DNA from: an uncultured Acetatifactor sp.
GTDB lineage: Bacteria; Bacillota; Clostridia; Lachnospirales; Lachnospiraceae
Direction of reading: 5' to 3'
Length of the DNA stretch: 64,000 nt
NCBI GenBank assembly: GCA_944384205.1
Contig: CALWSL010000007.1
Coordinates: forward strand, 82,533 to 146,532
The notes under the pieces were generated by a model. The model ran no database searches. It worked only from the letters and a program-made list of their open reading frames with translations, and was not told where the DNA came from. Numbering within the stretch: the first letter of the stretch is position 1; the number at the start of each line of letters is the position of its first letter. A program made the translations under genes and the position numbers. Below are positions 1,271 to 9,621 of the stretch, one piece after another.

Positions 1271-1630
1271 TTAATGTTGTCCATTACTCTTGTTTAATGA
1301 TTCCTTATTTACCATCGTTTTATATGACATACCCCATGTTTCCATAGAAGCAATAATCGGACGCATGGATTCCCCAAGCTCACTCAGGGCATACTCCACT
1401 CTTGGCGGCACTTCCGCATAAACAGTACGGGTAATAATTCCATCCTCCTCCATGGAGCGCAAGCTGTCAGTTAATACCTTTTGGCTGATGCCATCCAGAC
1501 TTTTTCGTAATTCATTAAAACGCCACGGGCGTTTCAGCAAGTTTCTTAAAATAAGAAGCTTCCATTTACTTCCTATCAGTTGTACGGTTGTCGCAACGGG
1601 ACATTCCGGCATTTCTTCTTTTGTCAGCAT
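1271..1630 (-). CDS. HxlR family winged-helix transcriptional regulator
   Basis: A 119-residue single-domain regulator. The family pattern is clear: CPVATTVQLIGSKWKLLILR at the start, then RFNELRKSLDGISQKVLTDS (the recognition helix region) and a wing ending in PPRVEYALSELG. HxlR proteins are dimeric, often redox- or aldehyde-responsive regulators; the early Cys in ECPVA is the family's usual sensor position. The ATG at 1630 has GAGG six bases upstream. An in-frame ATG at 1642 has none. It faces away from the RiPP operon at 1833, so it could regulate that operon, but no operator proves this. Confidence 0.88.
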   Translation of the reverse strand: MLTKEEMPECPVATTVQLIGSKWKLLILRNLLKRPWRFNELRKSLDGISQKVLTDSLRSMEEDGIITRTVYAEVPPRVEYALSELGESMRPIIASMETWGMSYKTMVNKESLNKSNGQH

Positions 1631-1832
1631 CCGGCACCTCATTTCAATAGTTTAAAACAGAATGTAGTATTCAAATTATAATATAACATAACAAAAAACA
1701 CAAGTAAAACAGGTTACAAATAGGTGACTAAGTAATAGATTTGTGCGTACTTTTTTTTGAATAAGCAATAAATTACAATAAACTTGCGAACAGGAAAGCA
1801 GTTCGACAATCAAAAACAGGAGGTAATTAAAA

Positions 1833-2027
1833 ATGGCGCTATCTAATCTGTTTGGATGGAACAATAAACCGGAGGAGGCTCCGGCTGCAGCATGCGGGAC
1901 TGCCTGCGGTGCAGGAGATAAGCCGGAAGAAAAACCTGCGGCATGTGGTACCGCCTGCGGCGCCGGCGATAAGCCTGCTGAGACTTCCACAGCCTGCGGC
2001 AGCGCTTGTGGCACCGGCGATAAGTAA
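1833..2027 (+). CDS. ACGX-repeat cysteine-rich RiPP precursor peptide
   Basis: A 64-residue peptide with an AGGAGG site nine bases before the ATG. After a short leader of about 19 residues (MALSNLFGWNN, then a PEE segment) come three repeats of the form ACGxACGxGDKP, giving six cysteines. The spacing is regular: the two Cys of each repeat are three residues apart, and the second Cys is three residues before an Asp. The gene lies 98 bp before a radical SAM/SPASM protein, the usual arrangement of an ACGX-type modified peptide. From family knowledge the peptide is the substrate of that enzyme. The nature of the crosslink, any cleavage and the final activity are not known from the sequence. Confidence 0.85.
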   Translation: MALSNLFGWNNKPEEAPAAACGTACGAGDKPEEKPAACGTACGAGDKPAETSTACGSACGTGDK

Positions 2028-2125
2028 ACTTTTTTGCGAGGTTTGTTTCCGGTGGGAAATTTTCCGCCGGAAACGTACGAAATGATACTCGGTTAATCCG
2101 ATTGATATAAGAGAGGTTATGCAGT

Positions 2126-3163
2126 ATGAAGCAATATTTTTCTTTTCAGTGGCACATTACGGATGAGTGTGACCAGCGGTGTAAGCATTGTTATATTTTT
2201 TCCGAAAATACCTGCAAAAAGCCGGATGCCATGAGCTGGCAAAAGATGCAGGACACTTTTTATAATTGTCTGGATTTCTGTAAGGTATATGACCGTCTGC
2301 CTTATTTTTATCTCACCGGGGGCGATCCCCTCCTGCATCCTGATTTCCGAAAGCTGCTGGGACTTTTGAAGGAACATGGCATACCTTTTGCGATTCTGGG
2401 GAATCCCTTTCATTTAAACGATGAGGTGTGCCGGATACTGAAAGAATATGGATGTGAAAAATATCAGCTTTCTCTTGACGGTATGCGGGAAACCCATGAT
2501 TGGTTTCGTAAGCCGGGCAGCTTTGATATTACGCTTGAAAAAATTCACTGCATTAAAAATGCGGGTATCCGATGCGTCATTATGACAACGGTTTCCGGTA
2601 TGAATATTGATGAAATCCCCGACGTCATAGATACAGTGGTAGCGCACAAGGCAGATGTATTTGCTTTTGCCCGGTACTGTCCCACCAGCGGGGAAAAAGA
2701 TACCGATATTACACCGATTCGTTACCGGAAGCTGCTGGAAACCTGTGATATGAAGTTTAGGGAGTATGAAGCGGCAGGTTGTGAAACCTACTTCAATAAA
2801 AAAGACCATCTCTGGACGCTGTACGAATATGAGACAGGAAGCTTTCGGATTCCTGAAACGGTGGAAGAAGGCATGATTTACGGTGGCTGCAACTGTGGAA
2901 ACTGCCATCTGACCATTCTTCCCACCGGAGATATTTATGCCTGTCGCCGGGTACAAAACAGCAGGGTCGGCAATGTATTCGAGGACAGAATTGCCGATGT
3001 CTGGGTCTGCCGGATGGAAAGCTATCGGGAATATACGAAATTTGAGAAATGCGCCAAATGTGAGTTGCTGGCATGGTGCCGGGGATGTCCCGCCGTGGCA
3101 AGTGGAAAAAACGGAAATTTCTATGCGGCGGATCCGCAGTGCTGGAAGGAGACGGGAAAATAA
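2126..3163 (+). CDS. Radical SAM/SPASM peptide maturase, ACGX system
   Basis: A 345-residue enzyme that should modify the peptide encoded just upstream. The radical SAM cluster motif CxxxCxxC is at residues 15, 19 and 22 (CDQRCKHC), followed by the GGDP glycine-rich motif of SAM binding. The C-terminal SPASM domain (about residues 254-340) has a Cys-rich entry CNCGNC, the pattern CxxCxxxxxCxxC (CAKCELLAWCRGC) and a last Cys near the end, enough to hold two auxiliary 4Fe-4S clusters. Length and domain order match known RiPP maturases. A nitroreductase starts 36 bp downstream and is probably cotranscribed. Confidence 0.88.
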   Translation: MKQYFSFQWHITDECDQRCKHCYIFSENTCKKPDAMSWQKMQDTFYNCLDFCKVYDRLPYFYLTGGDPLLHPDFRKLLGLLKEHGIPFAILGNPFHLNDEVCRILKEYGCEKYQLSLDGMRETHDWFRKPGSFDITLEKIHCIKNAGIRCVIMTTVSGMNIDEIPDVIDTVVAHKADVFAFARYCPTSGEKDTDITPIRYRKLLETCDMKFREYEAAGCETYFNKKDHLWTLYEYETGSFRIPETVEEGMIYGGCNCGNCHLTILPTGDIYACRRVQNSRVGNVFEDRIADVWVCRMESYREYTKFEKCAKCELLAWCRGCPAVASGKNGNFYAADPQCWKETGK

Positions 3164-3199
3164 ATATGACAATTTGTTTTTGTAAGGAGGGAAAGACAA

Positions 3200-3799
3200 G
3201 TGGAAACAATTCCGAATGAAGTAATAAAAAATATTATGCACCGTCGGGCAATACGAAGCTTTGAAACGAGACAAATTGAAGAAAGCGCATTGCAGCAGAT
3301 TCTGCAGGCGGGCCTATATGCACCAAGCGCGGGCGGCAGACAGGGCGTTCTGCTTGTAGTTTGTCAGGATAAGGAAATCAATGAGCGATTGGGAAAAATC
3401 AAGCGGAGCAATTCTAATCCGAAAATGGCAACTGCTACAAGCTATGTTTCCAGAGAACAACCCAGTATTGCCGATGATCCGAATCTCCGGAATGCGTTTT
3501 ACGATGCGCCCACAGTCATTACGATGTTTGCACCGAAAAACTTTTTGTTTTCCGCGGAGGACTGTGCCGTCGCTGCTGAAAATATGATGCTGGCTGCGGA
3601 TTCTCTGGGTATCGGCTCCTGCTATATCGGTGCCGGCTGGACTGCCTTTGCCGATTCCTATGGGCAGGAGATTTTAAGACGCTGGGGTATTCGCACGGAC
3701 TATTATGCGGTGATGCAGCTTTTGCTGGGATATCCCCGCGAGGGTGACAATCATCCTACCCCCAAACCACGCAAAGATAACCGGATTATCCGGGTATAA
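3200..3799 (+). CDS. Nitroreductase family protein in the ACGX locus
   Basis: A 199-residue FMN-dependent nitroreductase-fold protein. Family signs are the N-terminal RRAIRSFETRQIEESALQQI, the FMN phosphate region ending in APSAGGRQ, and the GIGSCYIGAGW segment before a C-terminal LLGYP. The GTG at 3200 has AAGGAGG nine bases upstream and is the only well-placed start. It lies 36 bp behind the radical SAM gene. Nitroreductase-like proteins are known partners in peptide tailoring (dehydrogenation of azolines, redox steps). Here it could act on the ACGX peptide or serve as a general flavin reductase; the sequence does not decide. Confidence 0.82.
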   Translation: METIPNEVIKNIMHRRAIRSFETRQIEESALQQILQAGLYAPSAGGRQGVLLVVCQDKEINERLGKIKRSNSNPKMATATSYVSREQPSIADDPNLRNAFYDAPTVITMFAPKNFLFSAEDCAVAAENMMLAADSLGIGSCYIGAGWTAFADSYGQEILRRWGIRTDYYAVMQLLLGYPREGDNHPTPKPRKDNRIIRV

Positions 3800-3902
3800 T
3801 TGGAAATAGAAACGGAGTGAAATGATAGAACTGAATAAGCACATAGCACAATTACAAGTTCTCAGCATACTATAAATAAAGATGCCAAAAGAGGTTTCTA
3901 TC

Positions 3903-4469
3903 GTGGAAGAAAAAGAAAAAATTCTGACGAATACTTGCAGCTTTAAGGGTGTTGAGCCGATTATGATGGATTTGCCCTATCCGCCGATTCGGGTGGAGGA
4001 AAGAAATCAGGAGTACGCCAATTTACTGAGCATTGATTATTGCGGTTCCGTATCGGAATTGTCTGCAATTACCCAGTATATTAACAACGAAAACCGCATG
4101 GCGAGTGAGAAATGTCCTCTTGCAAAAACAATTTTGGGAATTGCCATAGCAGAAATGATACATCTGCAAAAATTAGGTGAATTAATTTTTTTGTTGGGAG
4201 AAAAAATTGATTTTACTGCAAAATATCGAAACGGCAGACAAAAAATGTGGACGCCGCAATATCTTGCCATACCCGAAAACGTCAGGGAAATGCTGTTGAC
4301 AGATATCGAGGATGAAAAGGATGCGATTGAGCAGTATACTATACATATGAAAATGATAAATGACAGACATGTGAATGCCGTGCTTGCCAGAATTATCAAG
4401 GATGAGGAGTACCACATTATGATACTTAAGGCATTGTTGGCGGAGTTAGAAGAAAAAAGCAGGCAGTGA
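3903..4469 (+). CDS. Ferritin-like di-iron protein
   Basis: A 188-residue, mostly helical protein with the four-helix pattern of ferritin-like proteins. Carboxylate and His ligands recur in the expected places: SELSAITQY in helix 1, AEMIHLQK in helix 2, EDEKDAIEQY in helix 3 and KDEEYHIMIL in helix 4. This gives two E...ExxH sets for a di-metal centre. I prefer the GTG at 3903 because AAGAGG lies eight bases upstream; an in-frame ATG at 3882 has no ribosome site. It follows the nitroreductase by about 100 bp and may be the last gene of the RiPP operon. Its role, for example oxygen or peroxide handling for the radical SAM enzyme, is inference. Confidence 0.72.
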   Translation: MEEKEKILTNTCSFKGVEPIMMDLPYPPIRVEERNQEYANLLSIDYCGSVSELSAITQYINNENRMASEKCPLAKTILGIAIAEMIHLQKLGELIFLLGEKIDFTAKYRNGRQKMWTPQYLAIPENVREMLLTDIEDEKDAIEQYTIHMKMINDRHVNAVLARIIKDEEYHIMILKALLAELEEKSRQ

Positions 4470-4610
4470 ATAATTTAAAGCGCAAGAGCTGTGTATCTGC
4501 GCTCCTATATTCTTTTTGTACATTTCTCTTAAGAAAATCCATAATAGATGTCGATAACTATAATTGTTTGAGGAAACCACTGAAAATACCGTTTAATTGG
4601 AGGGATGTAT

Positions 4611-5495
4611 ATGGAAATTCGGGTTCTTCGTTATTTTCTTACTGTAGCAGAGGAAGGGAATATAACGAGAGCTGCGAATATTCTTCATGTCACGCAGCCG
4701 ACACTCAGCCGTCAGCTTATGGATTTGGAAAATGAACTTGGCACTACATTATTTCTGAGAGGAAAGAGAGCGATTACATTGACGGATGACGGATTAATAT
4801 TCCGCCAAAGGGCGAAGGAAATTGTAGAGCTTGCAGATAAGGCGGAACGGGAATTCATTGAGCGCCACGATTTGATAAATGGAGTTATTTCCATAGGGTG
4901 TGTCGAGACAATGGGCTCGCGTTTTCTTGCCGATCTTATTGTAAAATTTCATCACCAATATCCACAGGTGCAGTTTGACTTATACAACGGTTATTCCGAC
5001 GATATAAAAGACCGGATTGACAAAGGACTTTTGGATATCGGCTTGCTTATGTCGCCTGTCGAAATAACGAAATATGACTTTATGCGTCTGGACAAGAAGG
5101 ATATATGGGGCGTGCTGGTGCCGGAAGATGATCCGATTGCCAAAAGCAGTGCGGTTACTTTGGATGAAATCATGGATAAGCCATTGTTTGTGCCAAAGAG
5201 ATCTGCCGTACATAACGAAGTTGTAAATTGGTTTGGAGTTCCCGCAGAACGGTTAAATATTGTCGGAACCCATACGTTGTTGTCCAACACGGTGCTGCTC
5301 GTGGAACGGGGTATGGGTTATGCGCTTACTTTGAACGGTTCCCTTTCTGTTCAAAGCAGCCAAAAAACAAAATTTATTCCGCTTTCTCCGGAACGCACAA
5401 CAGAGAGTGTTTTTGTGTGGAAAAAAAACCACCTGTTTCATCCCGCCGCATCACTGTTTATCCAGATGGCAAATATGCAGAAAGGACAGTTGTAA
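4611..5495 (+). CDS. LysR family transcriptional regulator
   Basis: A 294-residue regulator. The N-terminal helix-turn-helix is typical (EEGNITRAANILHVTQPTLS, then RQLMDLENELGTTLF). The rest is the periplasmic-binding-protein-like effector domain with GCVETMGSRFLADLI and an IGLLMSPVE segment. Two ATGs lie six bases apart; the second, at 4611, has GGAGG seven bases upstream and is preferred. The gene is followed by a cupin-flavodoxin pair whose upstream region holds a perfect palindrome (5567-5580), so this protein is a plausible activator of those genes. The effector is unknown. Confidence 0.9.
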   Translation: MEIRVLRYFLTVAEEGNITRAANILHVTQPTLSRQLMDLENELGTTLFLRGKRAITLTDDGLIFRQRAKEIVELADKAEREFIERHDLINGVISIGCVETMGSRFLADLIVKFHHQYPQVQFDLYNGYSDDIKDRIDKGLLDIGLLMSPVEITKYDFMRLDKKDIWGVLVPEDDPIAKSSAVTLDEIMDKPLFVPKRSAVHNEVVNWFGVPAERLNIVGTHTLLSNTVLLVERGMGYALTLNGSLSVQSSQKTKFIPLSPERTTESVFVWKKNHLFHPAASLFIQMANMQKGQL

Positions 5496-5566
5496 GAGGA
5501 TTTTATCATTCGCATAAGACATAATAAACAATAATTTATAAGTATTAGACATAGAAGAGAATTCCG

Positions 5567-5580
5567 ACTATCATGATAGT
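5567..5580. promoter_or_regulatory. Perfect 14-bp palindrome ACTATCATGATAGT
   Basis: A perfect dyad lies between the LysR gene and the cupin. Direct copies of AGAGAATTC flank it at 5556-5564 and 5583-5591. The position fits an operator for the adjacent LysR protein. Binding is inferred, not shown. Confidence 0.45.
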
Positions 5581-5594
5581 GTAGAGAATTCTTG

Positions 5595-5636
5595 AAACGG
5601 CAGATGGATTTTAGGATTCCGTCTGCCGTTTTCAAT
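5595..5636 (+). terminator. Rho-independent terminator or attenuator before the cupin gene
   Basis: A 10-bp perfect stem (AAACGGCAGA at 5595-5604 with TCTGCCGTTT at 5622-5631) is followed by a short T-rich tail. It ends LysR transcription, or attenuates any transcript that starts at the palindrome just upstream. Confidence 0.65.
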
Positions 5637-5668
5637 CGAATCAAAATATGAGAAAGGAGAAATGTATT

Positions 5669-6079
5669 ATGAGTACGCTTGAAAACAGTGTTATTTTTGC
5701 AAAAGGCGAGGTTAATCCGTTCGGAGAATTTTTTATCGGGACGTCCTATTTGAATATGCTTACCACCCAGGGAGTTGCAATTGGCAATGTAACCTTTGAG
5801 CCGGGCTGCCGGAACAACTGGCATATTCACAAAGCTGACAAGGGCGGCGGGCAGATTCTGCTCTGCACCGGCGGCAGAGGCTGGTATCAGGAATGGGGCA
5901 AAGACGCACAGGAGCTTCACGCCGGAGATGTGGTGGTAATTCCTGCAGGAGTAAAACACTGGCACGGCGCGGCGCAGGACAGTTGGTTTGTACATCTTGC
6001 AGTAGAGGTTCCCGGCGAGAACACAGGCTGCGAATGGCTGGAGCCCGTATCAGAGGAAGATTACAGAAATGTCCAATAA
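5669..6079 (+). CDS. Cupin domain protein
   Basis: A 136-residue single-domain cupin. Motif 1 is seen as WHIHKADKGGGQILLCTGG (two His, a Gln and a Gly-rich turn). Motif 2 is GDVVVIPAGVKHWHGAA, giving the third His. Such proteins bind a metal and act as small isomerases, decarboxylases or sensors; Lachnospiraceae copies are often beside flavodoxins and carboxymuconolactone decarboxylase-like genes. The ATG at 5669 has AAGGAG upstream; an in-frame ATG at 5648 has none. The gene overlaps the next flavodoxin by 11 bp, so the two are translationally coupled. Confidence 0.85.
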   Translation: MSTLENSVIFAKGEVNPFGEFFIGTSYLNMLTTQGVAIGNVTFEPGCRNNWHIHKADKGGGQILLCTGGRGWYQEWGKDAQELHAGDVVVIPAGVKHWHGAAQDSWFVHLAVEVPGENTGCEWLEPVSEEDYRNVQ

Positions 6080-6554
6080 AATGCTGATTATTTGCTATTC
6101 ACAGTCAGGAAATACCCATCGTGTCGCAGTTGAAATCCAAAGGCAGACGCAGGGAGAGCTGTGCCAGATTTATCCCTGGCAGCCGTATCCCATGACATAT
6201 TGGAAGCTGCTTTCACAGGTCAAGAAAGAAATTTATGACGGCTACTGTCCCCGCCTGCTGCCTGTTTCCTGCAATCTGCAGGACTATGATGTTATTTTTG
6301 TCGGTACTCCGAATTGGTGCGGAACAATGGCGCCGCCTGTAGCGGCTTTTCTGTCACAGAATCAACTGTCGGGAAAAAACATTCTTCCTTTCTGTACCCA
6401 CGGCGGCGGAGGCAGCGGTCACATCGAGGAAGATATCAGAAAAATCTGTGGGGATGCAAAGGTATGCAGGATTTTCAGCACAATAGGAAAGGGCGGAGTG
6501 CATTTAACACAGGATATCGGAGAATGGCTGCGCGATAATGGTATTAACTGCTAA
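6069..6554 (+). CDS. Flavodoxin-like protein
   Basis: A 161-residue flavodoxin. The FMN phosphate loop is CYSQSGNTHRVA at the N-terminus. VIFVGTPNWCGTMAPPV forms the second FMN-contact loop and LPFCTHGGGGSGH the third. It starts inside the cupin gene (11-bp overlap), so it is made together with it. Soluble, with no signal peptide. It probably carries electrons for or works with the cupin protein. A second flavodoxin domain, exported as a lipoprotein, follows at 6676. Confidence 0.86.
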   Translation: MSNKMLIICYSQSGNTHRVAVEIQRQTQGELCQIYPWQPYPMTYWKLLSQVKKEIYDGYCPRLLPVSCNLQDYDVIFVGTPNWCGTMAPPVAAFLSQNQLSGKNILPFCTHGGGGSGHIEEDIRKICGDAKVCRIFSTIGKGGVHLTQDIGEWLRDNGINC

Positions 6555-6603
6555 CGAGGATAATTCTGAAAAGTAAGTTATAACCTCCGGGTGTGAACTG
6601 GTG

Positions 6604-6639
6604 AACGAAACGAGACTTCTGTGAAAGTTTCGTTTTTTC
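6604..6639 (+). terminator. Rho-independent terminator after the flavodoxin gene
   Basis: AACGAAAC (6604-6611) pairs with GTTTCGTT (6627-6634) and a run of T follows directly. Confidence 0.75.
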
Positions 6640-6675
6640 TATAATACAGTCAACAGGAACAGAAAGGAGTTTACA

Positions 6676-7371
6676 ATGAAAAAATTTACCGTTTTATTTT
6701 TAAGCTTATCAATGATATTCAGTCTTGTTGCCTGCGGCAGTCAGAACAGTGAAAACAGCGCGCAGACAGGTCAGACTGCCAATGAAAGCACAACGTCGGA
6801 AGACACGCAGGAATCTGACCTGCAAACGGAGGAAACTCAGACAGAGAGTTCTGTAGAAAGTGTTGCCTCAGAACAGGAAACTCAGGAAAAAAAGACGCTG
6901 GTTGTCTATTATTCCGCATCAGGAAATACGGAAGCGGCTGCAAATTATATTGCCGCGGCAACCGATGCCGATGTTTTTGAACTGGTTCCGGCAGTTCCGT
7001 ATACGGATGATGATTTGGACTGGACAGATGACGAAAGCCGGGTTGTATATGAATATGAAAACCCGGAGGAACGGGCAGTAGAGCTTGTGGAATCAACTGT
7101 CCCTGACTGGGAATCCTATGATGTCGTTTTTATCGGCTATCCTATCTGGTGGGGAATTGCGGCATGGCCTGTAAATGAATTTATTGAAGGAAATGACTTT
7201 ACAGGAAAGACTGTTGTTCCGTTCTGCACATCGGCAAGCTCCGGTTTGGGTGAAAGCGGCGAATTGCTGGCGGAGGCAGCAGGAACGGGAGAATGGCTGG
7301 AAGGCGAGAGATTTACTTCAAGAGTTTCGGAGGAAACCGTTCAGGAATGGATAGAAAGTCTGGGGTTGTAA
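6676..7371 (+). CDS. Flavodoxin-domain lipoprotein
   Basis: A 231-residue exported protein. It has a lysine-start signal peptide and a lipobox (LVAC, Cys at residue 20). A Ser/Thr/Glu/Gln-rich linker of about 50 residues follows, then a flavodoxin domain. The FMN loop is YYSASGNTEAAA, the second loop VVFIGYPIWWGIAAWPV and the third VPFCTSASSGLGESG. AAAGGAG lies upstream of the ATG. It should sit on the outer face of the membrane, which is unusual for an FMN protein and implies flavin supplied outside the cytoplasm or export in folded form. It follows a terminator, so it may have its own promoter. Confidence 0.88.
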   Translation: MKKFTVLFLSLSMIFSLVACGSQNSENSAQTGQTANESTTSEDTQESDLQTEETQTESSVESVASEQETQEKKTLVVYYSASGNTEAAANYIAAATDADVFELVPAVPYTDDDLDWTDDESRVVYEYENPEERAVELVESTVPDWESYDVVFIGYPIWWGIAAWPVNEFIEGNDFTGKTVVPFCTSASSGLGESGELLAEAAGTGEWLEGERFTSRVSEETVQEWIESLGL

Positions 7372-7599: not shown

Positions 7600-8448
7600 A
7601 TGAAAAGAGTAGCGCTGATTAATGATTTATCCGGCTTTGGGAAATGTTCCCTGACAGCGGCGATACCTGTCATCTCAGTGATGGGAATGCAGGCTTGTCC
7701 TCTTCCGACGGCTGTTTTGTCGGCTCAGACGGGATTTCATAATTATTATTGTGATGATTTTACGGATAGAATGGATTGCTTCACGGATGAGTGGAAGAAA
7801 ATGCAGGTAAGCTTTGACGGAATTTATTCCGGTTATCTGGCAGGCCCCAGGCAAATGGAAAAGGTTCTGTACTTTTTGGAGGCGTTTAAAACAGAGGATA
7901 CCATGTATCTGGCTGACCCTGTTATGGGTGATAATGGCAGAGGCTATCACATGTTCAGCAAAGAGCTTCTGGATGAAATGAAAAAGCTGACAGTGAAGGC
8001 GGATGTCATTACTCCCAATTTGACGGAAGCCTGTTTCCTTGCGGGCGAAGAGTACCGGGATGTGATTTCCCACAGGCAGCATAAGGATTATACGAAACGC
8101 ATTCAGGATATCTGCGAAAAGCTTTTGAAGCAGGCGCAGAAACCCCAGACCGTCATAGTAACGGGCATTATCCGGGAGAGAGAAAATCAGGAATATGCAG
8201 GTAATCTTGCAGTTACGGAGAACGAAAGCTTTTATGTGGAACATCCTTACACGGGAACGGGATTTTCGGGCACTGGAGATTTGTTCGCATCCGTCATATG
8301 CGGTTCACTGATAAAAGGATTATCCGTTCAGGAAGCCGTAAAAAAGGCGGCGGGCTTTTTGCAGGCAGCAATAGAAGAGGCTACTGCAGAAAAGATTCCC
8401 CCGAACCACGGAATCCCGTTTGAAAAATATTTATATCAGTTATTATAA
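7600..8448 (+). CDS. Pyridoxamine kinase
   Basis: A 282-residue ribokinase-fold kinase that phosphorylates B6 vitamers (pyridoxamine, pyridoxal or pyridoxine) with ATP. The N-terminal INDLSGFGKCSLTAAIPVIS and the substrate segment PTAVLSAQTGFHNY are diagnostic of the PdxY/pyridoxamine kinase group. YLADPVMGDNG, PNLTEA and the anion-hole and catalytic region YTGTGFSGTGDLF complete the fold. The ATG at 7600 has AGGAG seven bases upstream; the ATG at 7594 is too close. It lies 13 bp before an ECF transporter S component, which fits uptake and trapping of vitamin B6. Confidence 0.9.
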   Translation: MKRVALINDLSGFGKCSLTAAIPVISVMGMQACPLPTAVLSAQTGFHNYYCDDFTDRMDCFTDEWKKMQVSFDGIYSGYLAGPRQMEKVLYFLEAFKTEDTMYLADPVMGDNGRGYHMFSKELLDEMKKLTVKADVITPNLTEACFLAGEEYRDVISHRQHKDYTKRIQDICEKLLKQAQKPQTVIVTGIIRERENQEYAGNLAVTENESFYVEHPYTGTGFSGTGDLFASVICGSLIKGLSVQEAVKKAAGFLQAAIEEATAEKIPPNHGIPFEKYLYQLL

Positions 8449-8461
8449 GGAGGCGGCAGCA

Positions 8462-9010
8462 ATGAGTATGCAGAAAACCGTAAATGAAGAAAAAGCAATG
8501 AAAAGTTCAAAAGTAAAATATATCACAATGACAGGTATCATGGCGGCATTGATTACAATTATGACGGCTTATATTTTCCATATTCCTATAGGTGTAAACG
8601 GCGGTTATGTTCATTTCGGAGATTCCCTGATTTATCTGGCGGCAGTATTGCTTCCGACGCCCTATGCCCTTGCGGCAGCAGCCATCGGCGGTGGTCTGGC
8701 GGATTTACTGACAGCTCCCATGTGGGCGCCCGCAACTATAATTATCAAAATGCTGATTACGATTCCTTTTACCAATAAGTCGAAGAAAATTGTAACTCCC
8801 CGCAACGTAATAGCAACCGTAATCGCATATTTTATTTCAGGAATCGGCTACTTTGTTGCGGAGTATGTTCTTTTCGGAACATGGTCAGTCTTTTTTGTAT
8901 CCATGTACCAAAGTTTGTGGCAGTCCGGCGGAAGCGCAATTTTCTTTGTTATTTTTGGTCTTGCGCTGGATAAGGCTCATGTAAAGACAAAATTCTTTGG
9001 AGAAAATTAA
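8462..9010 (+). CDS. ECF transporter S component (probable B6 vitamer uptake, TIGR04002-like)
   Basis: A 182-residue membrane protein with about five to six hydrophobic segments, typical of the substrate-binding S component of energy-coupling factor importers. The loop GVNGGYVHFGDSLIYLAA (residues about 38-55) and the following Ala/Gly-rich helix AAAIGGGLADLLTAP match the S-component fold. The start at 8462 has AAGGAGG eight bases upstream. The energizing module (EcfAAT) is not in this window and would be shared. The pyridoxamine kinase upstream makes pyridoxine or pyridoxamine the likely cargo. Confidence 0.82.
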   Translation: MSMQKTVNEEKAMKSSKVKYITMTGIMAALITIMTAYIFHIPIGVNGGYVHFGDSLIYLAAVLLPTPYALAAAAIGGGLADLLTAPMWAPATIIIKMLITIPFTNKSKKIVTPRNVIATVIAYFISGIGYFVAEYVLFGTWSVFFVSMYQSLWQSGGSAIFFVIFGLALDKAHVKTKFFGEN

Positions 9011-9024
9011 GAGAGGTATTAATT

Positions 9025-9621
9025 ATGGCAGATATTTTATACACATACAAAAATCAAGTTTACGCAAACATTACAAACCGCTGTGACTGCAGTTGTCAGT
9101 TCTGCATCCGTTCCCATCAGGACAGTGTGGGAGAAGCGGAGAATCTCTGGTTCAAAACCGATCCTACCTTGGAAGAAATCAAAAAGGCGATGGATGAGTT
9201 TGATTTTACAGGCTATGAGGAATTGGTATACTGCGGTTATGGAGAACCGACCTGTGCGCTGGAAAATCTTCTTGCCAGCGCCGCATATGCCAGGGAAAAA
9301 TATAATATCAGGATTCGCCTGAACACCAACGGACTGGCTAATCTGTATCACAAGAGAAATGTGGTGCCGGAGCTTGCAAAGGTAATTGACAGCGTTTCTA
9401 TTAGTCTGAACGCGCCCACCGCGGAGAAATATCAGGAGGTAACGCGTCCCCGGTTTGAAAATGCCTTTCCTGCCCTTCTGGAATTTGCGGCTCTTGCGAA
9501 GGATGCGTTTGCGCATACACAGCTTTCCATCGTGGATGTGCTTCCTGAGGACGAGATTAAGGCGTGCCGGAAGATTGCGGATGACAGAGGGATTTATCTG
9601 AAGATTCGGAAGTTTTCTTAA
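9025..9621 (+). CDS. Small radical SAM protein (TatD-linked/rSAM-pair type)
   Basis: A 198-residue radical SAM protein, short for the superfamily. The cluster motif CxxxCxxC is seen as CDCSCQFC at about residue 21-28, and YCGYGEPTCALENLL is the SAM-contact motif. No SPASM or other auxiliary cluster domain is present, so it is a minimal barrel. It starts 15 bp after the ECF S-component gene and belongs to the same operon. Similar small radical SAM proteins in Clostridia are linked to TatD-type nucleases and to this S-component family; their reaction is not known to me. Confidence 0.8.
   Translation: MADILYTYKNQVYANITNRCDCSCQFCIRSHQDSVGEAENLWFKTDPTLEEIKKAMDEFDFTGYEELVYCGYGEPTCALENLLASAAYAREKYNIRIRLNTNGLANLYHKRNVVPELAKVIDSVSISLNAPTAEKYQEVTRPRFENAFPALLEFAALAKDAFAHTQLSIVDVLPEDEIKACRKIADDRGIYLKIRKFS

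Follow-up and report, generated by a model that had tools for sequence, protein, structure and literature searches.

An ACGX-type radical SAM/peptide pair is part of a predicted HxlR-associated redox operon that in about two thirds of the related loci examined carries ADP-ribosylation enzymes

We analyzed a 64,000-nucleotide stretch of DNA (the window) from an uncultured Acetatifactor sp. (assembly GCA_944384205.1, contig CALWSL010000007.1, positions 82,533 to 146,532 of the forward strand), in which a model, working from the letters alone, had described an ACGX-type locus for a ribosomally synthesized and post-translationally modified peptide (RiPP) together with two redox partners of its own. 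All four open reading frames of this sequence-only reading lie where it had put them, on one strand: acgX (1833..2027, +), encoding a 64-residue precursor peptide (TIGR04341, 63.3 bits against a cut-off of 28, and repeat statistics); after a gap of 98 bp, the gene of a 345-residue radical S-adenosylmethionine (SAM)/SPASM maturase of the rSAM_ACGX family (2126..3163, +; TIGR04340, 591.9 bits against a cut-off of 400); the gene of a nitroreductase-family flavoenzyme of subtype NTRa with a GTG start (3200..3799, +; PF00881, 90.9 bits); and a ferritin-like gene (3882..4469, +; PF00210, 31.7 bits, with a weak PF00210/PF02915 match). The assignment of the first two to the ACGX type holds, as both proteins score far above the NCBIfam cut-offs. 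The pair is already known as a prediction, in the form of a curated but uncharacterized NCBIfam family, the original description of which is reportedly that of Haft and Basu. Left out of the sequence-only reading were a divergent HxlR-family regulator gene, a putative operator, a hairpin separating acgX from the maturase gene, and the class M sirtuin (SirTM) and/or zinc macrodomain genes with which the operon usually continues in other genomes; in this genome such a pair lies elsewhere. As far as our literature searches reach, it is new that the ACGX pair is part of an HxlR-associated redox operon, two thirds of whose representatives with enough sequence carry ADP-ribosylation enzymes; among the open-licence papers listed there was no published link of the pair to HxlR, the promoter motif, the oxidoreductase, or SirTM/macrodomain genes.

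The comparison covers 111 loci including the window, of which 85 are non-redundant (NR) once their enzymes are clustered at 95% identity. Loci from named genomes are the best 80 of 450 encoded relatives, picked by closeness to the window enzyme, so that distant members are under-represented; longer stretches were added for 30 further loci, and the family labels of neighboring genes were taken from one representative each. Above its cut-off, the rSAM_ACGX family was present in 16 of the 391 class genomes, 15 of the 101 genus genomes, and 9 of the 398 phylum genomes sampled; these samples overlap. Seven later loci from the phylum sample (L222-L228, of which L223 is the same stretch as L036) stand outside all counts and agree with the main set: the oxidoreductase comes next in 7/7, HxlR lies upstream in 4/7, and the motif is exact in 5/7. 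Enzymes from the genus of the window are spread across the enzyme tree, interspersed with those of other families, a pattern suggesting that the operon was transferred horizontally.

The first gene downstream of the maturase encodes an oxidoreductase in 84 of 84 NR loci, with the start of the gene required to lie within 700 bp of the enzyme gene (in L045, L074, and L079 it begins 550-650 bp off). Its type varies among nitroreductase subtype a (29 loci), nitroreductase subtype b (26), quinone oxidoreductase (24), and a PNPOx-type flavoprotein (5), and a PNPOx gene is found within 4.5 kb in 41 of the 68 NR loci with at least that much downstream sequence. One of the two proposed redox partners is thereby borne out, since a nitroreductase is the first gene in 55/84 loci, and the other is not: the ferritin-like gene adjoins the pair in the window only (1/68), and a 25% ferritin-like match in L046 lies upstream. 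We rejected it as a partner on this count and regard it as an incidental neighbor outside the conserved system. An extra gene for a ferredoxin-nitroreductase fusion was seen further downstream in L042 (8628-9506) and also in L036 and L045. The L042 locus, from the cultured commensal Agathobaculum Marseille-P7918, also encodes HxlR, the peptide, SirTM, and the zinc macrodomain.

Divergent from the peptide operon lies hxlR (1271..1642, -), encoding a regulator of the HxlR/DUF24 family (Pfam HxlR, 108.6 bits), which may in fact begin at the ATG at 1630. Where enough upstream sequence was available, a minus-strand HxlR gene was found in 53 of 60 NR loci within 3 kb and in 56 of 71 within 1.1 kb. 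The best PDB match of the protein is 4a5m YybR, which we take to be HypR. A single invariant N-terminal Cys is present in 65/65 aligned HxlR homologues, and one conserved Cys is common in the HxlR family; the HxlR domain together with this Cys gives the protein the sequence features of an HxlR/DUF24 redox sensor. The related regulators HypR, YodB, and CatR detect HOCl, quinones, and diamide by means of an N-terminal Cys, and their regulons include hypO, azoR1, and the nitroreductase gene yodC (PMC6943732).

The promoter alignment, by column counts, shows a conserved box with a partial inverted repeat, GTTACAAATAGGTGACTA (1713..1730, +), followed by the core GTGCGTACTT (1743..1752, +), which is exact in 65 of 70 NR promoters and is our candidate for the HxlR operator. 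A -10 element, TACAAT (1774..1779, +), follows 21 bp after the core, and among the 65 loci with the operator 59 have a -10 element matching at least 5/6 positions at 20-21 bp from the motif, against a background of 3.5% in the same flanks. Regulator and motif tend to occur together: where the upstream sequence extends to 3.3 kb or more (81 loci), 67 have both and 7 have neither (Fisher 1e-5, computed on loci that are not independent). A generic promoter/terminator scan gave no more matches than in shuffles, and the acgX promoter was not among them. In the promoters of L005 and L189, the half AAGTGCGTA stands twice in tandem upstream of acgX, which suggests two HxlR dimers there.

Between the peptide and radical SAM genes, local folding reveals a hairpin (2045..2074, +) with a best energy in the window of -23.9 kcal/mol, compared with a shuffled mean of -11.3 kcal/mol. 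The corresponding hairpin beats all 20 dinucleotide shuffles in 55 of 65 loci, with a median z of -4.1.

By scripted detection, a peptide with ACG repeats is encoded upstream of the enzyme gene in at least 72 of 85 NR loci; this is a lower bound, because contig ends account for part of the remaining 13 and L196 (which coincides with L122) has a peptide. The window peptide begins with the leader MALSNLFGW and continues with three Cys-x3-Cys-x3-Asp units, two of the form ACGTACGAGDK and a last one reading ACGSACGTGDK. A leader of the form M-A-L-S-N-L-x-G-W is common to the 68 NR peptides whose start is clear (W in 64, N5 in 62), a set that leaves out the 13 loci without a detected peptide and four without the leader pattern. 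In these 68 peptides, 177 of 232 units are double (Cys-x3-Cys-x3-Asp type) and 55 are single, and the terminal Cys has an Asp at +4 in 216 of 234 cases. The Cys-x3-Asp spacing is also retained in L097-L099 and L118, where the spacers differ. Natural variants occur in L197 and L199 (genomes G407 and G417; the same as L123 and L125), where units of the form ACGA[AV][GSA]PEEKP without Asp at +4 precede a final ACGSACGAGDK. In L074 (Oscillibacter valericigenes An411), the reading frame of the peptide seems to be interrupted partway through the repeats.

The maturase has Radical_SAM (81.2 bits) and SPASM (30.3 bits) domains in Pfam, and its CX3CX2C motif (C15, C19, C22) and seven further Cys are invariant in 18 aligned sequences. 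An AlphaFold2 model from an 18-row alignment (pLDDT 88.5) has a SPASM maturase fold. We predict a PapB-like Cys-to-Asp thioether across Cys-x3-Asp as the most likely modification, because PapB joins Cys to the beta-carbon of Asp in a CX3D motif (PMC9413430). Several observations weigh against this chemistry. The folds nearest to the model (SuiB, SkfB, anSME, and CteB) belong to maturases that differ in chemistry, so the fold does not choose the type of crosslink; the score with the SbtM profile, the closest after its own, is higher (164 bits) than that with PapB (61.7 bits against a cut-off of 340), and the enzyme is therefore not filed as a PapB-type ranthipeptide maturase; and for 18 of the 234 terminal Cys the +4 position is not Asp, four L197 units (ACGA[AV][SA]P) among them. 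Since conservation is about as high for Ala at -1, Gly at +1, and Ala at +2 relative to the Cys as for the Asp, the maturase could instead make another mark, such as an alpha-carbon thioether, a Cys-Cys or Cys-Gly bridge, or an oxidized or dehydro residue, with the Asp serving only in recognition or metal binding. We regard this as a plausible second choice rather than the probable one, as the 55 single units keep Cys-x3-Asp and not Cys-x3-Cys, which makes Cys-x3-Asp the smallest shared unit.

Around the nearest enzymes below the family cut-off (L100-L102, L128, and L129, and, with longer stretches, L208-L212 and L221), no match to the partner genes was found, the flanks of L221 being short, and the ACGX peptide pattern was absent near L100-L102, L128, and L129. 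Downstream of the related enzyme in L221 (genome G779), positions 2893-3177 encode another type of peptide, in which a long leader precedes a Cys-rich tail (SSDCDSCCNGGQPDGDCSECFAACCQ); it may be the precursor peptide on which that enzyme acts.

Within 4.5 kb downstream, 44 of the 68 NR loci have a sirtuin gene and 29 have a macrodomain gene; 45 have either, 28 both, 16 SirTM without the macrodomain, and one the macrodomain alone. The representative sirtuin has 5a3a as its best PDB match (2.1e-74), which is presumably the streptococcal SirTM. The motif TQGDYG is present in 60/60 sirtuins longer than 600 bp from the 111 loci, and class M sirtuins carry QG in place of the catalytic HG (PMC4518038). 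The representative macrodomain is an NF003163 protein-ADP-ribose hydrolase (377.6 bits against a cut-off of 272) close to solved proteins such as 5kiv. In the class sample, a zinc macrodomain above the cut-off was found in 16/16 genomes with ACGX and in 55/375 others (Fisher 3e-13, a value for which the relatedness of the genomes overstates independence). It lies within 3 kb of the ACGX locus in 12 of the 16 and elsewhere in the window genome (G000), G296, G316, and G332, and 17 of 21 further ACGX genomes also have it. A sirtuin query matched 34 of 37 ACGX genomes, G805 only with 34% over the query length or as fragments, and G715 and G795 as fragments. In the window genome, the pair is encoded in trans (G000:C4, L173; macrodomain 7731-8567, sirtuin 8568-9521), and no GTGCGTACTT motif was found there. 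Interrupted sirtuin genes led us to consider a group II intron, an idea we dropped: the L057 sirtuin frame is without an internal part, and the 424-residue frame downstream does not resemble a reverse transcriptase by eye.

The known substrate of such modules was looked for as well. In other systems, SirTM ADP-ribosylates a lipoyl carrier, and we considered a GcvH-L protein as a hidden partner of the ACGX loci; this was rejected, as none lies near them. No GCV_H match was found on the locus contig in 30 ACGX genomes (completeness is 90% or more and contamination 5% or less in 21), 26 of the 30 are without any such match, and the few matches sit on other contigs than the locus.

Two simple histories of the linkage were rejected. 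Macrodomains linked to ACGX do not form one specialized clade: in a tree of 33 linked and 22 unlinked sequences (rows with internal stops dropped; the unlinked ones taken from fetched loci and not from all 55 genomes), the label has to change 14 times, and well-supported branches force at least 8 of these changes. The mean of shuffled labels is 17.6 and 26 of 500 shuffles were as low, so there is some clustering and no single origin. Nor is the SirTM/macrodomain linkage an ancestral trait of one enzyme clade, as it needs 16 changes on the enzyme tree (54 of the 85 NR enzymes usable), with at least 8 forced and 215 of 500 shuffles as low.

We propose, with a probability of roughly 0.6, that the locus is the short form of an HxlR-controlled redox-stress operon for an intracellular thioether peptide. 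The HxlR-type thiol sensor would bind GTGCGTACTT beside the -35 region of the acgX promoter and switch the operon when the cell meets electrophiles, quinones, or disulfide stress, and the hairpin between the first two genes would leave the peptide in excess over the enzyme. The maturase would read the MALSNLFGW leader and modify each ACGxxD unit, and in double units the first Cys may remain a free thiol or form a disulfide. The peptide would stay uncleaved in the cytosol as a multivalent sulfur carrier or redox buffer and cooperate with the flavin or NAD(P)H oxidoreductase of the adjoining gene. In about two thirds of relatives, SirTM and/or the zinc macrodomain of the operon may couple this response to reversible ADP-ribosylation; in the window genome that pair is encoded elsewhere.

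A number of findings speak against this proposal. The window itself has no SirTM or macrodomain gene close to the locus, and both are absent from the 4.5 kb downstream in 23 of 68 loci. The pairing of HxlR with the motif is broken in 7 of 81 loci (four with HxlR only, three with the motif only), and the single exact copy of GTGCGTACTT in the 3,147,725-base window genome, at 1743-1752 of the window, is weak by itself, as a reversed control pattern occurs only twice, so that it fits a local regulator without proving one. SirTM/macrodomain modules with a divergent HxlR gene are found in genomes without the ACGX enzyme (L149, L154, L158, L159, L161, L167, and L171), and L152 combines such a module with HxlR, nitroreductase, and PNPOx genes, again with no ACGX enzyme in the genome. 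L152 (G197) and L161 (G008) have HxlR, the identical GTGCGTACTT motif, and the macrodomain/SirTM pair without the peptide or its enzyme and are natural ACGX-less versions; the peptide cannot, then, be the sole partner of these modules. The minimum of 8 changes on both trees speaks against a fixed couple of substrate and enzyme, while their repeated association at one position argues for a common function.

The product could also be an exported RiPP, antimicrobial or signaling, that relies on general host machinery for export and cleavage, with the redox genes serving stress in the producer. The nearest solved relatives of the maturase include SkfB, CteB, and SuiB, which serve secreted peptides, and the number of CG..D units varies from 1 to 6 in the NR set. 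We hold this to be improbable. The sequence-only reading had seen no dedicated transporter or protease beside the pair, and among neighbor clusters present in at least 5 loci, read by eye, no such gene sits at a fixed place, as would be expected of a product retained inside the cell. The repeats continue up to the C-terminus, with 49 of 68 peptides ending in [GSA]DK, and the motif and HxlR are common to the peptide-less modules of L152 and L161. The setting beside a redox-type regulator and an oxidoreductase, and in about two thirds of the related loci examined also beside ADP-ribose-handling enzymes, suggests that the ACGX peptide is a stress-response peptide kept in the cell and not an exported antibiotic.

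Alternatively, the peptide might be a metallothionein-like sink for metals or electrophiles that is tuned by the maturase, with the ADP-ribosylation genes co-regulated by HxlR and not partners. The abundance of Cys arranged as Cys-x3-Cys pairs (the L016 peptide has 15 Cys), the nearby HxlR gene, and the many changes of the SirTM/macrodomain linkage on both trees would suit such a sink; a dedicated radical SAM enzyme would be costly for one, and the spacing of the Cys is, to our knowledge, unlike that of any metallothionein. We consider it rather unlikely and keep to the redox-stress operon with a thioether peptide. A bolder extension of that proposal, which we offer as speculation and think unlikely, is that clostridial SirTM/Zn-Macro pairs have their missing carrier in the matured peptide. 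It would be a multi-site counterpart, made by a radical SAM enzyme, of lipoylated GcvH-L, in which Cys-x3-Cys dithiols replace the lipoyl dithiolane and SirTM and the macrodomain, controlled by HxlR, reversibly ADP-ribosylate the Asp (or Cys). If so, it would be a RiPP with an activity switched by ADP-ribosylation, and we know of no other. A modified peptide encoded in the operon itself, most of whose Cys have a conserved acidic residue next to them, is a directly testable candidate in the SirTM/Zn-Macro context of Ariza et al. (PMC11490716). The orphan ACGX family would gain a likely regulator, inducer class, and partner enzymes and a predicted crosslink, and it would join the RiPPs thought to act intracellularly.

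On the minus strand (2-1157), a TetR-like regulator and a flavin reductase-like gene, labeled by eye, adjoin the HxlR gene, and the flavin reductase-like gene had no match beside other ACGX loci. On the plus strand (4605-7371), a LysR regulator, a cupin-like gene, and two flavodoxin-like genes follow the ferritin-like gene; this stretch is redox-flavored but not conserved with ACGX and gave only scattered weaker matches.

Four known systems bear comparison with this locus. The window matches the NCBIfam ACGX system (TIGR04340 rSAM_ACGX with TIGR04341 target_ACGX) in scores, gene order, and strand; that family is defined by the pair alone, and the HxlR gene, promoter motif, oxidoreductase, and SirTM/macrodomain context are, as far as our searches of open-licence papers reach, additions of this work. 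With the ranthipeptide system PapA/PapB (freyrasin), it shares several Cys-x3-Asp motifs and a radical SAM/SPASM enzyme (PMC9413430), and it differs by its many double Cys-x3-Cys-x3-Asp units, by a score far under the PapB cut-off, and in that the ACGX crosslink is a prediction. The HypR/HypO and YodB/YodC switches of Bacillus likewise combine an HxlR-family sensor that has one N-terminal Cys with an adjacent nitroreductase-family gene, whereas in the ACGX locus the first gene after the motif is that of a peptide with its maturase. The SirTM/Zn-Macro operons (Rack 2015, PMC4518038; Ariza 2024, PMC11490716) resemble the ACGX loci through the class M sirtuin and/or zinc macrodomain in 45/68, and the OYE and LLM genes of the extended SirTM operon described there parallel the redox enzymes of the ACGX loci. 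The window differs from these operons in carrying the pair only in trans, and the ACGX loci differ in having, across 30 genomes, no GcvH-L gene nearby, the place of which is occupied by the radical SAM peptide.

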